From an uncultured Acidobacteriaceae bacterium (lineage in GTDB: Bacteria > Acidobacteriota > Terriglobia > Terriglobales > Acidobacteriaceae): a stretch of 64,000 bases of DNA. Location: contig CAIMKZ010000106.1 in NCBI GenBank assembly GCA_903842065.1, positions 1 through 64,000 on the forward strand, given 5' to 3'. The notes beneath the pieces were generated by a model, which saw only the letters and a program-made list of their open reading frames with translations, had not been told where the DNA came from and searched no databases. This document shows positions 31,247 through 57,745 of the stretch, in pieces. Position numbers and translations under genes: made by a program. Position 1 is the stretch's first letter. Each line of letters opens with the position of its first letter.

Positions 31247-31322
31247 AAAGAAATGTTAGCGCGATGCAGCTCTCAGCACTGTGACCGCCGTCCCTCAGTC
31301 CCTCAAACGCTACAATCTCCCC

Positions 31323-32210
31323 ATGCCCCTGGTCTCCCTTGACGGCGTCTCGAAGACCTACCCCCGCCGCGCCGGCCTGCGCACCACCGAGCACGCCGTC
31401 GTCGACCGCGTCTCGATCTCCATCGAGCCCGGAGAGACTCTCGGCCTCGTCGGCGAGTCAGGCTCCGGCAAAACCACCGTGGCCCGCATGATCCTCGGCC
31501 TCACCCGGCCCACCAGCGGCACGGTCCTCGTCGACGGCATCGACATCGCCCGAGCCGCGCGCGCCCAGCTCCACCGCCTGCGCCGCCAGATGCAGCCTGT
31601 CTTTCAGGATCCCTATGCCGCCCTCAACCCGCGCATGAAGGTCGCCGACATCGTCACCGAACCGCTCGTGATCCACGGCCTTGATGGCTATGATTCAGGG
31701 TGCCCCACCCTCGGGGTCCCCACAGACAGGTCTTCGTCTGTGGGGTGGAGACTCGCCGCGCCGTTGTCTTTGCGGCTAGGGTGGGGTCGGAAGAACGCAA
31801 CTCTCCGCGCCCGCGCCATCGATCTGCTCAAACAGGTCGGTCTCGACGAGTCCGCACTCGACCGCCATCCCCACCAGTTCTCCGGAGGCCAGCGCCAGCG
31901 CATCAACATCGCCAGAGCCCTCGCGCTCCGTCCCCGGCTGCTCATCCTCGACGAGCCGGTCTCGGCCCTCGACGTCAGCGTCGGCGCGCAGATCGTCAAC
32001 CTGCTCCGCCGTCTCCAGCGCGAGCATGGGCTCACCTACCTGTTCATCTCTCACTCGATGCCGCTGGTCCGCTATCTCAGCTCACGCATTGCGGTCATGC
32101 AAAACGGCCGCCTCGTAGAAACCGGCGAGGCAGAAGCCCTCTGCGCAAACCCCAGCGAAGCCTACACACGGCAACTCATCGCGGCCACGCCCGAGCTGCC
32201 GACCGCCTAG
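31323..32210 (+). CDS. peptide/nickel-type ABC transporter ATPase with a repeat-derived insertion
   Basis: An OppF/DppF-like ATPase. Walker A is GESGSGKTT, the Q-loop is in [14 protein letters not shown], the signature is FSGGQRQR, Walker B is LLILDEP and the switch histidine is in FISHS. Between IHGL and [12 protein letters not shown], where family members have only a short linker, lies an in-frame insertion of about 40 residues ([11 protein letters not shown] ... [10 protein letters not shown]), encoded by a palindromic repeat unit. It sits between Q-loop and signature, in the helical subdomain. No permease or partner ATPase is adjacent, so this is an orphan. ATG 31323 ([13 protein letters not shown]) is preferred; a frame open from 31281 adds 14 residues. 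Confidence 0.85.
31698..31790. repeat. nested palindromic repeat inside the ABC ATPase gene
   Basis: An outer stem CCCCACCCT (31703-31711)/AGGGTGGGG (31778-31786) encloses a perfect inner hairpin CCCCACAGAC (31718-31727)/GTCTGTGGGG (31736-31745). It starts with GGGTGCCCCA like the family A units between genes. It has no stop in the reading frame of the gene and adds residues rather than breaking it. Confidence 0.8.
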
Positions 32211-32242: not shown

Positions 32243-32310
32243 CTGTCATCCTGAGCGAAGATTGGCGCGGATTCTGCGCCAATCGCAGTCGAAGGACCTG
32301 CGGTTGTTCT
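32243..32310. repeat. family B repeat (TGTCATCCTGAGC type)
   Basis: The unit has a conserved start TGTCATCCTGAGCG, a variable hairpin ATTGGCGC/GCGCCAAT, and a conserved end AGTCGAAGGACCTGCGG. The same start and end occur in the insertion within trmFO at 55.8 kb. It lies in the intergenic space after the ABC ATPase gene. Confidence 0.8.
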
Positions 32311-32396
32311 TCAACGAACTTCAGATCGCCACACTGCGGCCACGCCTGAACTGCCCGTCGCTTAAGTTTCTTACAGCTTAATTTTTGTACGGATTT

Positions 32397-54663: not shown

Positions 54664-54728
54664 GGGTTATGCTTTCCCGGGTCTCAAAATCGAGACCCGG
54701 GGCACCCAGATTTGTGGTTGGTTGAGAG
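54664..54728. repeat. family A palindromic repeat
   Basis: GCTTTCCCGGGTCTC/GAGACCCGGGGCACCCA with loop AAAATC, followed by ATTTGTGGTTGGTTGAGAG. It starts at the stop codon of the GNAT gene and runs up to the trmFO ribosome site. Confidence 0.8.
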
Positions 54729-54747: not shown

Positions 54748-56268
54748 TTGAGGATACGCATCATTGGCGGAGGACTGGCTGGCTCGGAAGCAGCGCTGAC
54801 GGCGGCGCGGATGGGCTGCGAGGTCGATCTCTACGAGATGCGGACCGAGACGCGTTCAACACCGGCGCACAAGACTACGGATTTCGGCGAGCTGGTCTGT
54901 TCAAACTCACTCAAGAGCGAGAGCGAGAACACCGCTCCCTGGCTGCTCAAGCAGGAGATGCGGCGGCTGGGTTCGGCGCTCATCAAATTCGCTGACGAGA
55001 CGGCGGTTCCGGCGGGCCATGCCCTGGCTGTCGATCGCGTCGAGTTTTCGCGGCGGGTGACGGCGGCTATCGAGGCCGAGCCGAAGATTCGGGTGATTCG
55101 CGAAGAAGTGACTTCGCTTGAGGGAGATGGGCTGGCTATCGTGGCCAGCGGGCCGCTGACCTCCGATGCTTTGAGCCGTGAGATCGAGCGGCTGACGGGC
55201 GCGGAACATTTAGCGTTTTACGATTCCATTTCGCCGATCGTCGAGACCGACTCGATCGACATGGAGCGCGTCTACATGGCCGCGCGGTGGGACAAGGGCA
55301 CCCCCGACTACATCAACTGCCCCATGGATCGCGAGGAGTACGACCGCTTCTACGACGCGCTGATCGGGGCCGAAGCCGCCGAAGCAAAGGAGTGGGAGAA
55401 GGCCGAGTACTTCCCACCCCAAGCGCCAGAAGCGGGCGCTCGGGGGCCCCGGTACTTCGAAGGCTGTCTGCCTATCGAGGTGCTGGCCCGGCGGGGCAAG
55501 GATACTCTGCGCTACGGACCGATGAAGCCGGTGGGGCTGCGCAATCCGCGCACCGGCAAGACCCCCTGGGCTGTGGTGCAACTGCGCAAGGAGAATCTGC
55601 GCTCCGATAGCTACAACCTGGTGGGCTTTCAAAATCACCTGAAGTGGGGCGAGCAAGCACGGGTCTTGCGTCTGATTCCCGGTCTCGAGAATGCGAAGTT
55701 TCTGCGCTTCGGCCAGATTCATCGCAACACGTATATCTGCGCGCCCGCGCTTCTCGACAACTTACTGCGCCTTATACCCAGCATCTGTCATCCTGAGCAA
55801 ATCACGACAGTTTGTCATCCTGAGCAAGGTAATAAAGTTTGTCATCCTGAGCGGAGTCTGGATCGCGAAGCGTTCCAGACGGAGTCGAAGGACCTGCGGT
55901 TGTCTTTCCCGCCCCACTCAATCCTCTTCGCCGGCCAGCTCGCCGGCATCGAGGGCTACACGGAGTCGATTGCAACGGGGATGCTGGCTGGCCTCTATGC
56001 GGCATCGCTAGCGCGGGGAGTGGAGCCGGAGCCGGTCCCCCGCACCTCGGCCCTCGGCTCGCTCGTCAACTACATGACCCGCGCCGAAGCCAAAAACTAT
56101 CAGCCCGCCAACATGACCTTCGATCTCCTCGAACCGCTCGAAGAAGAGACCCGCAAAAAACTCCGCGACAAAAAGCTCCGCCACAAGATGCAGTGCGACC
56201 GTGCGCTTGAAGCGTTCGAGACGTGGCGGGCGGAGTTCGAGCAAAGGCTGGGGACAAGCCAGGTTTGA
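54748..56268 (+). CDS. trmFO: tRNA (uracil-54) methyltransferase TrmFO with a repeat-derived insertion
   Basis: A 506-residue FAD enzyme that uses methylenetetrahydrofolate to make T54 in tRNA. It has the N-terminal dinucleotide site IIGGGLAGSEAALTAARMG, FGELVCSNSLKSESENTAPWLLK, and the C-terminal FAGQLAGIEGYTESIATGMLAGLYAA. Normal TrmFO proteins have about 435-470 residues. Here about 45 extra residues lie between LLDNLLRL and ILFAGQ (about 343-388), containing three CHPEx units encoded by family B repeats (55786-55909). TTG 54748 is the best start; the 12 codons before it are family A repeat. The insertion is in a surface loop just before the conserved FAD segment. Confidence 0.92.
   Translation: MRIRIIGGGLAGSEAALTAARMGCEVDLYEMRTETRSTPAHKTTDFGELVCSNSLKSESENTAPWLLKQEMRRLGSALIKFADETAVPAGHALAVDRVEFSRRVTAAIEAEPKIRVIREEVTSLEGDGLAIVASGPLTSDALSREIERLTGAEHLAFYDSISPIVETDSIDMERVYMAARWDKGTPDYINCPMDREEYDRFYDALIGAEAAEAKEWEKAEYFPPQAPEAGARGPRYFEGCLPIEVLARRGKDTLRYGPMKPVGLRNPRTGKTPWAVVQLRKENLRSDSYNLVGFQNHLKWGEQARVLRLIPGLENAKFLRFGQIHRNTYICAPALLDNLLRLIPSICHPEQITTVCHPEQGNKVCHPERSLDREAFQTESKDLRLSFPPHSILFAGQLAGIEGYTESIATGMLAGLYAASLARGVEPEPVPRTSALGSLVNYMTRAEAKNYQPANMTFDLLEPLEEETRKKLRDKKLRHKMQCDRALEAFETWRAEFEQRLGTSQV
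55786..55909 (+). repeat. family B repeats inside trmFO (three tandem starts)
   Basis: Three copies of TGTCATCCTGAGC occur at about 26-base intervals (55786, 55813, 55840). The last is followed by a hairpin GTCTGGA/TCCAGAC around TCGCGAAGCGT and by AGTCGAAGGACCTGCGG, exactly as in the intergenic copy at 32.2 kb. The reading frame is kept throughout and contains no stop. Confidence 0.88.
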
Positions 56269-56298
56269 GGGTATTTGTTATCCCCGGTTCCAAGGCCG

Positions 56299-56358
56299 GC
56301 TGCCCCAGGTGCCTCGCATTTGGGCACCTGGGATAGATCGACTCTCAACCAGCCACAC
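56299..56358. repeat. family A palindromic repeat
   Basis: CTGCCCCAGGTGCC/GGGCACCTGGGATAG around TCGCATTT, followed by GACTCTCAACCAGCCACAC. It lies just downstream of trmFO. Confidence 0.75.
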
Positions 56359-56660
56359 GAAAGAAGCAGGGGCTTTCTATCAGGGCACGACTTCTGTCGT
56401 GCCGAACCATGCCTCAACTTCCACTGGGCTTTAGCCCCTGCGGACCGCGCCCCGATCATCTGCAACGAAGCTGTGCCCCGTTCATCGCGGTCATATCGCG
56501 ATGAGCGGGAGGAATTGGGTTCGTGCTCTCCCACTCAAAACGGTCGCCGCGCCTGCCCGCCGTGGCGGGACGACCGCGTTTTGAATGGGGCACAGACGCG
56601 TCATGCAACCATGAAGTGTGAAGGAACGGGACGGGCCACCTGCCCTACCTTCCCATCCGC
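56359..56660. other. intergenic repeats between trmFO and the channel gene
   Basis: About 300 bases of mixed palindromic units: GGGCACGACTTCTGTCGTGCC (56383-56404, a near-perfect hairpin), GGGCTTTAGCCCCTGCGG (56428-56445) and inverted CGGTCGCCGCGCC segments near 56540. An open frame across it (56275-56943, plus) has no coding character. No gene is supported. Confidence 0.55.
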
Positions 56661-57547
56661 AATTCCTCCATTCTTGTTTGGATTTCTTCGAGCAGTTGAG
56701 TATCGTCCTGATACAAACCAATTCCCGCTACCTTTATCGCATTCTCCGTCCGCTGCATCCGATCAGCCTCGTTTATCTTCCGCTCGGACGAGAGTTCCTG
56801 ACGGCGACTCAGTATCCAAGATGTTGAAGTCGCTAGAACCACGGCGAGGACAAATAGCGCGACAACAATCTCAGTGCATACAAGCAATTTTGTTGACATG
56901 CTATCTGGGTAGAAGTCGCCATAACCCACCGTTGCGAAAGTGACCAGGGAGAAATAGACCGAAGACGCAAGTTCCAAGTCCTTCGAAAATGCAAGTAGAT
57001 GGATGGTTGTCAGCGAGAGGTAAATAGCAGCGTATCCGAGTACGACGCAAGCAATCGCGTTTGCAAGAAGCGAGAAAAGTGAAACGGGATCCTGAATTGA
57101 GGGCTCGAATGAATACTCCCGAAACGGACCAGCTGACCCCATGTATTGAGTTTGCACATCAACGCCGGAACCATAGAGGACTTCTCCCAACAGGCAAACC
57201 GCCAACCCGAGACCGGAGAGCACCGCGATAGAGCCTGCTATAGCCGAGGAGATGAACCAAGATGCCCAATACAAGACCAGCGAGGATGCAGCGAACGCTA
57301 AGCTCGCGCGGGAGAATAATCGACGAGTGCGTAGAATCCCCAAACGGTGGGGTCTCCTTTGACCGGAGACAAACTTTGGGACTGCTCTGGCCAGGCGTTC
57401 GACCTCACTGATGCGACGGCCCATGACATCCTTGTATGCCTGCCGAAATGTCGGATCCTTGGGGTCGATGCTATCCGGCAGTTTGTCGCCGAGCGTATGA
57501 AAGAAGTCGTCGCCGATTTCCTCAGGCGATTCAATTTTAGGATTCAT
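56645..57547 (-). CDS. two-pore-domain-like potassium channel protein (Ion_trans_2)
   Basis: A 300-residue membrane protein from ATG 57547. An N-terminal cytosolic part of about 85 residues is followed by two hydrophobic segments (LAFAASSLVLYWASWFI; AGSIAVLSGLGLAVCLL). Then comes a pore module: helix, pore loop with selectivity filter TVGYGD in YFSLVTFATVGYGDFYP, and helix LVCTEIVVALFVLAVVLATS. A C-terminal helical tail (about 45 residues) follows. There is a single pore domain, so four copies would form the channel. No RCK/TrkA domain is attached. The start lies next to a family A repeat; upstream extension to 57679 is repeat sequence. Confidence 0.85.
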   Translation of the reverse strand: MNPKIESPEEIGDDFFHTLGDKLPDSIDPKDPTFRQAYKDVMGRRISEVERLARAVPKFVSGQRRPHRLGILRTRRLFSRASLAFAASSLVLYWASWFISSAIAGSIAVLSGLGLAVCLLGEVLYGSGVDVQTQYMGSAGPFREYSFEPSIQDPVSLFSLLANAIACVVLGYAAIYLSLTTIHLLAFSKDLELASSVYFSLVTFATVGYGDFYPDSMSTKLLVCTEIVVALFVLAVVLATSTSWILSRRQELSSERKINEADRMQRTENAIKVAGIGLYQDDTQLLEEIQTRMEELRMGR

Positions 57548-57593
57548 CGGGTTGAGTTTAGCCCGACTCGAACCACTTGTCACTCTGATTGAC

Positions 57594-57676
57594 GGGTGCC
57601 CACGGTCTCGATTCACCTTCCAAAACCACAACTCGGGTGCCCCCGGTCCCTCGCCTTCGGGGACCGGGGAAGCATC
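57594..57676. repeat. family A repeat, compound copy
   Basis: GGGTGCCCACGGTCTCGATT, then AAAACCACAACTCGGGTGCCCC, then CGGTCCC/GGGACCG around TCGCCTTC and GGGGAAGC. Two units in tandem, the first broken. It lies directly upstream of the channel gene. Confidence 0.7.
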
Positions 57677-57745
57677 CACCCCAAATCCCCGCCCCGCCCG
57701 CTAACCCCGCCAGCACCGCTAACTCCGCTATTTTTCTCCCCCCCC

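Follow-up and report, generated by a model that had tools for sequence, protein, structure and literature searches.

Excerpts of the Rickettsia literature (PMC2229807) describe palindromic repeats, termed RPE, in 19 reading frames; a guanylate kinase with an insert was active and its substrate affinity was altered. Intragenic REPs of the GTAG and CGTC families are described, in the passages of PMC3733652 used here, within open reading frames, such as those for tRNA pseudouridine synthase and tRNA synthetase, in several bacteria; clusters of these REPs encode 43–82 residues, and recB of two Xanthomonas was hit at approximately the same site. According to these passages the CGTC repeats lack linkage to transposase genes, and acidobacterial TIRYTs have already been described. 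In REPtrons and TIRtrons (RAYT, TIRYT), inverted repeats lie beside Y1 transposase genes (excerpts of PMC3733652 and PMC2817692). Lagging-strand targeting is documented for relatives of IS200/IS605 (excerpt of PMC6006769). Since the Rickettsia elements it has been asked whether bacteria regularly gain new protein segments from mobile hairpin repeats. Here, an in-frame repeat was analysed in the trmFO gene of a soil acidobacterium (genome G000) and in the same gene of its genus.

The trmFO gene and its family-B insert

The window, i.e. the whole stretch of DNA that was analysed (64,000 nucleotides), belongs to contig 106 of the genome and carries the following features in and around trmFO.

54748..56268, + strand: trmFO, product FADH2-oxidising methylenetetrahydrofolate--tRNA (m5U54) methyltransferase (NCBIfam, TIGR and PDB matches); start codon uncertain, TTG 54748 or TTG 54712
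54676..54707, − strand: family-C hairpin directly upstream of trmFO
55408..55452, + strand: second, smaller in-frame expansion of trmFO (YFPPQAPEAGARGPR), hairpin-forming and common to four loci of the genus
55777..55917, + strand: expanded stretch of trmFO, about residues 344–390 (boundaries approximate); in most relatives this place is a turn only a few residues long
55786..55812, + strand: 27-nt unit 1, family-B head TGTCATCCTGAGC plus 14 nt, read as CHPEQITTV
55813..55839, + strand: 27-nt unit 2, family-B head plus 14 nt, read as CHPEQGNKV
55840..55908, + strand: complete family-B element, hairpin and conserved 3′ end (CHPERSLDREAFQTESKDLRLSF)
56298..56332, + strand: family-C variant hairpin directly downstream of trmFO
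56381..56440, + strand: family-E element downstream of trmFO, of the type found in trmFO of G003 and G062
32244..32312, + strand: family-B copy outside trmFO, the other one in the window

The original prediction had placed three TGTCATCCTGAGC starts and one full hairpin unit inside a conserved tRNA-modification enzyme. The host is TrmFO, matched by NF003739 (E 1.2e-179) and TIGR00137 (E 8.1e-165) in NCBIfam and by PDB entry 3g5q (E 9.8e-115), and both the family-model match and the conserved residues place it in the family. C51 and C240, which we take to be the catalytic cysteines, are among the columns that are invariant in an alignment of 43 TrmFO sequences. Between this genome and six loci of the same genus, third codon positions of the trmFO core vary 2.7–3.4 times as often as first positions and 4.7–5.2 times as often as second positions. 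On comparative sequence grounds, the gene outside the insert is under purifying selection and the enzyme is retained despite the insert. The end branch of this TrmFO (0.65 versus a median of 0.19) is the longest in the genus except for that of G063 (2.09, with an odd composition); relaxed constraint could account for it.

The exact TGTCATCCTGAGC sequence occurs in the window at 55786, 55813 and 55840, as had been predicted, and also at 32244. With up to one mismatch, 0.09 matches would be expected in the window and four were reached by none of 100 shuffles, which rules out a chance origin of the cluster. The three trmFO heads are spaced 27 nt apart and all lie in the trmFO frame, where they are read as CHPEQ, CHPEQ and CHPER. 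The element that begins with the third head has an intact hairpin (GTCTGGA...TCCAGAC), the RNA fold of 55840–55914 is calculated at −27.5 kcal/mol, and its 3′ end GTCGAAGGACCTGCGGTTGTCTTTC is conserved in other family-B copies of the genome. From HRNTY to AGQxxG the protein has 76 residues here and 32–34 in uninserted relatives. The gain is thus approximately 44 residues, close to the predicted figure of about 45 with three CHPEx units.

A structure model of the loop had been proposed as a check. In the AlphaFold model of this TrmFO (mean pLDDT 81.8), residues 351–358 and 361–385 have pLDDT values below 50, and most of the insert is accordingly predicted as a low-confidence loop. The model is rough, because its best structural match (TrmFO 3g5s, E 7.9e-46) gives TM-scores of only 0.57/0.67 and an r.m.s.d. 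of 9.7. In the solved Thermus enzyme 3g5q, residues 324–330 form the gap between the matched stretches. Adjoining trmFO is an open reading frame (56645–57679, − strand) containing TVGYGD, presumably a potassium-channel-like motif.

The same loop across the genus

Of 80 genomes of the genus searched for TrmFO, 77 gave a match; 73 of them yielded 75 readable loops, G003 and G101 having two loci each. The count excludes G024, G030, G067, G072, G077, G092 and G098, where the match was missing or incomplete. The motif search did not recover G092, whose match coordinates leave no space for an insert. Close TrmFO relatives at the named loci are Acidobacteriaceae, for example Terracidiphilus gabretensis, together with many metagenome bins.

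The distance from HRNTY to EGY is 36–38 residues in 62 of the 75 loci and 49–128 residues in the other 13. A recognizable repeat is present in 12 of these 13 expanded loops, that of the window included. Family B is clear in G000, G016, G035 and G093 and degenerate in G023 and G100; family C occurs in G029 (with A), G102 (with D) and G069; family E occurs in G003 and G062, in the latter apparently with another palindrome nested; and family D occurs in G101. When each insert was shuffled 300 times in two-base blocks, with seven motifs tried, no more than two shuffles equalled its family tag. The remaining loop, that of G086, is expanded without a family tag. Inserts of all families fall within a few codons of one turn, ahead of the strand that leads to AGQ, and in the comparison from HRNTY to AGQxxG the uninserted relatives have a tight, repeat-free turn. 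Neither a target-site duplication nor an exact empty site is readable.

An ancestral TrmFO segment was rejected as the source, the residues being absent in 62 of the 75 genus loci. The original prediction would also have fallen had relatives carried the same residues without repeat similarity; this was seen in none of the 75 loci, the G086 insert coming nearest to it.

Other TrmFO expansions of at least 15 residues are few in the genus, with two loci at position 128 and four, including G000, at position 222. The position-222 expansion is perhaps family D; the stretch at 55408..55452, compared by eye, perhaps bears a weak resemblance to that family. On the Granulicella/Edaphobacter side, loci L130 and L138 hold a B-like VILS...SKDPEG segment in frame in a different TrmFO loop, before YFEGC. 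In the G062 gene (L155) a palindrome (CAGGCTGCGGAAAAACTC...GAGTTTTTCCGCAGCCT with CGGGGGTTTCAACCCCCG hairpins) is seemingly nested in the E element; TrmD of G010 and G004 has a similar GGGGFNPRI segment.

Repeats, transposase genes and orientation in the genome

The exact 13-mer TGTCATCCTGAGC has 58 copies (40 + 18) in the 4.09-Mb genome and its reversed-pattern control has none. In the 44 family-B copies with both ends (the trmFO copy lies outside this set) the ends are constant, and the middle has 4–34 nt of variable sequence. A stem of at least 6 bp is formed in 31 of the 44 copies by 22 different stems (mean 6.4 versus 3.4 in shuffles); the palindrome is kept through sequence change, as in REPs. 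The middle measures 14, 23 or 32 nt, in steps of nine, in 27 of the 44 copies. The CGTC tag is absent from family B among 58 exact and 28 one-mismatch heads, and GTAG, by eye, from the constant B ends. Families C and E have 166 and 37 genome matches, respectively, with up to one mismatch (controls 0), and are high-copy in the manner of REPs; no GTAG tag was seen by eye in the hairpins inspected for C, D and E. At L008 and L025 extra B heads stand in tandem before a full B element, as in trmFO, at spacings of 36 and 25 nt; a 25-nt spacing would break a frame.

The original prediction had proposed a genome-wide search for both repeat families inside genes. Family B lies in frame in six genes of this genome according to family models: TrmFO, PriA, an ABC-F ATPase, TrmD, QueE and the tail of YbeY, beyond its domain match. 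The PriA, ABC-F and YbeY copies were placed by family models alone. Six is a lower bound, because of the 86 B heads in the genome (58 exact, 28 one-mismatch) 75 were examined, all exact ones included, and the copies outside the six genes were only partly checked for coding. The Pfam scan comprised eight frames, namely six over B copies, L207 and the ABC ATPase of the window; no family was assigned to L016, L008, L012, L185 or L018, and L017 matched below the cut-off only. Two candidates were set aside: in L207 (signal peptidase) the Pfam match ends at or before the one-mismatch B site, and the L200 match looks by eye like chance.

Two sites in one window had been taken as a sign of a general repeat-to-peptide process, the second being an ABC transporter ATPase, and this companion case is real.

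31260..32207, + strand: ABC transporter ATPase open frame with in-frame repeat (Pfam ABC_tran, E 2.5e-35; the matched stretch 49–234 spans the insert)
31699..31787, + strand: family-D repeat (GGTGCCCCACCCTCG...CGGCTAGGGTGGGGT) with family A (CACAGACAGGTCTTCGTCTGTG) nested, within the ABC ATPase (limits approximate)

The general process gains support from the five further conserved genes with B in frame, from the 62 TrmFO loci without the residues and from repeats in TrmD and QueE loops of sister species. The motif search for QueE was passed by 10 of 30 fetched loci, and in three of the ten thus read, namely G000, G099 and G025, the loop contains B translated as AQDD. In this respect QueE and TrmFO resemble the Rickettsia cases, with an in-frame insert in a conserved gene that is absent from relatives. 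In QueE of G086 the loop is longer but shows no clear tag, and the QueE loop of G000 (L029) has a C-type segment (SQVPKCEGPGAP) in addition to B and is approximately 67 residues above the shortest loops. For TrmD, all 30 fetched loci were read by at least one motif search, with 8 of 30 and 7 of 30 unmatched in two of these. B is present in G000, an exact head in G060 and a degenerate B (up to three mismatches) in G002; D or E tags occur in 11 of 23 matched loci, by loose motifs without a shuffle control.

Among 31 B copies, the three forward frames are stop-free in 29, 31 and 0 copies and the three reverse frames in 24, 12 and 21. The frames used are CHPE in TrmFO of the genus and VILS in Granulicella-side loci, and the reverse-strand copies in PriA, ABC-F, TrmD, QueE and YbeY give AQDD or a near form in the cases read. 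This usage, as far as sequences tell, fits selection among open, polar frames.

Nine Y1-transposase matches were found in the genome. The GGCTGCCCCAGGTGCC variant of C flanks the Y1 genes of L065 and L067 in inverted copies and C itself flanks L069, a fragment; the L066 gene is flanked by inverted E-type repeats that share only the GGGCTTTAGCCCCTG half of E, and the L068 gene by inverted D repeats. The NCBIfam scan took in six of the proteins, leaving out L062, L064 and L065. L066, L067 and L068 scored above the cut-off of NF047646 (REP-associated tyrosine transposase), L069 scored below it, and L061 and L063 are of IS200 type. Inverted copies flanking a RAYT gene, as in REP/TIR systems, were thus found for C, D and E. 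Next to intact RAYT genes, C and E occur as variants of the forms present in trmFO: the intact C-flanked genes bear the GGCTGCCCCAGGTGCC variant and the exact C type of the trmFO inserts flanks the fragment. The D sequence in the ABC ATPase of the window is nearly identical to that flanking the RAYT gene of L068. Family B lies on both sides of none of the nine Y1 genes in this genome, so that it lacks this REP trait here; one degenerate B head is near L068.

The orientation of B agrees in 63 of 82 within-contig pairs versus 41.0 expected, a value reached in 0.005% of 20,000 coin-flip draws (P = 5e-5). The strand carrying the element has a mean GC skew of −0.087, and in 46 of 54 copies outside the window the skew is not positive (C-rich). 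On contig C100 the skew is clearly positive to 40 kb, near zero or mixed at 40–100 kb and negative at 100–220 kb; the sign change at 40–100 kb is probably near the replication terminus, and B and C flip orientation across it. The C matches of C100 (up to two mismatches) point one way in 20 of 23 cases before ∼60 kb and the opposite way in eight of eight after 125 kb, with none between, and the B copies (two before ∼60 kb, four after 125 kb) are oriented as C in six of six. The three C exceptions each lie 21 nt from an opposite-strand match and are probably the reverse arm of one hairpin. The strand of long open reading frames on C100 shows no matching change.

Orientation of B and C thus mostly tracks the polarity of GC skew, which is what single-strand HUH transposition would predict; the exceptions include the trmFO neighbourhood. 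Around trmFO (48–56 kb, + strand) the skew is +0.13, opposite to the general trend, and C copies nearby point both ways. On the contig with PriA, all seven other exact B copies run opposite to the one in that gene; the nearest exact C is oriented differently from six of 35 B copies, and eight of 32 neighbouring B pairs are discordant.

Origin of the inserts and comparison with known systems

The explanation that we favour, with a probability of roughly 0.78, is that a mobile hairpin repeat landed in frame in an indel-tolerant turn of trmFO and was kept as nearly harmless. The insert would be a copy of a short hairpin-forming mobile repeat with two extra heads, these 27-nt units having arisen by later local duplication or further insertion. 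Families C, D and E would be moved by the adjacent Y1/HUH transposases via single-stranded DNA at the replication fork, and B may be mobilized likewise in trans, or by a transposase that was lost or not recognized. Insertions would arrive widely and selection would purge those in genes; the survivors there would be in-frame, stop-free, polar copies in loops, linkers and tails. Which frame is translated, CHPE or VILS forward and AQDD reverse, would depend jointly on the strand of the gene and the polarity of replication. The in-frame hairpin and the unrelated repeats in the same loop of sister species suggest that such elements repeatedly lengthen conserved enzymes.

The number of insertions was estimated on a tree of 87 TrmFO cores. 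On separate starred branches, C-bearing G029 falls with G099 and G097, and C-bearing G102/G069 with G064, G101 and G003b, all of these partners being uninserted; two C origins follow. The E inserts of G003 and G062 are possibly a single event (support 75/7). The B carriers are poorly resolved, with four changes on the best tree, and one old B gain followed by losses is as possible as many gains. If a single origin is counted for each of B, D and E in addition to the two forced for C, the sequences imply that the turn was entered at least five separate times, a count that gene exchange between species could alter. These groupings bear on a single ancestral TrmFO insertion that diverged in place, with later elements nested within it and no repeated fresh hits. 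We regard this as unlikely: the two C branches, the tight turn of uninserted loci with no trace of a repeat and the many precise in-frame losses required all weigh more than the similar LRL-x-P junction ahead of the insert in G000, G035, G093, G023 and G086 and the nesting, which by eye seems real (G062 palindrome inside E; G029 A inside C).

Improbable to a somewhat greater degree is that the loop peptide is useful, in regulation, interaction or stability, with the repeats held by positive selection. The enrichment at one turn and the hits in several tRNA-modifying enzymes (TrmFO, TrmD and QueE) would suit this, but PriA, ABC-F and YbeY are not tRNA modifiers, and the inserts vary between species in sequence, length and family, are absent from 62 of 75 loci and are of low confidence in the model. 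Families E and D also keep their frame in different proteins (E gives QGTTSVVP both in TrmFO of G003 and in TrmD of G064; D gives SPTH..DGAP in TrmFO of G101 and APTL..KDGAP in TrmD of G087), although shared frames could stem from stops in the other frames, as shown for B only. We give equally little credence to the trmFO site being a sequence-specific transposase target that receives more arrivals; several families do lie within a few codons, but the junctions vary by several codons and the B-like segments of L130 and L138 are in another TrmFO loop. An assembly or binning artefact, which the original prediction had named as an outcome that would undo it, is scarcely credible: many genomes are metagenome bins and G003 and G101 each hold one inserted and one uninserted TrmFO locus, but none of the 13 open frames that contain an insert has an internal stop, the assemblies are separate (L088, L090, L099 and L101 are named), and independently assembled genomes hold related or different repeats at the same spot.

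Beyond in-frame landing of a nearly harmless repeat, a bolder proposal is that the repeats are adapted to translation, with stop-free, polar elements surviving in genes, replication polarity picking the frame and the TrmFO, TrmD and QueE loops serving as shared landing pads. We consider this doubtful. If true, transposases would drive a standing supply of peptide modules in the lineage, with new segments being tried in a few enzyme loops.

In-frame palindromic repeats in proteins are an already known kind of element, represented by the Rickettsia RPE and intragenic REPs. The resemblance to the RPE lies in short palindromic repeats placed in frame in conserved genes (excerpts of PMC2229807); the differences are other sequences (RPE-4 and RPE-6 both have the CGTC tag, excerpts of PMC3733652), another phylum and one enzyme loop that here carries several families in different species. 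From the GTAG/CGTC intragenic REPs the present case differs in that family B has neither tag and the other families and the genus are different, and it goes beyond them in comparing many species at one site with several families. As in REPtrons and TIRtrons, C, D and E stand in inverted pairs beside Y1 genes; unlike them, three repeat types lie by different transposase genes in one genome, copies are inside host genes of the genus, and B is without such a gene. Orientation is tied to replication as in IS200/IS605 (excerpt of PMC6006769), but the repeats here are short and non-autonomous and their polarity is read from GC skew only.

The literature was covered by title and abstract, with subscription journals mostly outside its scope. 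Within it, the family-B sequence is not described (papers matching TGTCATCCTGAGC concern animal or human subjects), and none of the titles or abstracts deals with repeats in TrmFO or with a multi-family site. The results suggest that repeats can be the source of recurrent peptides such as CHPER...ESKDL, VILS... and AQDD in this group's proteins. At least four families in one enzyme loop, beside uninserted sister genes, provide natural pairs for questions of insertion cost, arrival (transposase, strand) and usefulness. Judged by those titles and abstracts, what is new relative to the known systems is the B–E families themselves, the entry of four of them into one enzyme turn in many species, and the joint evidence from transposase genes and polarity.
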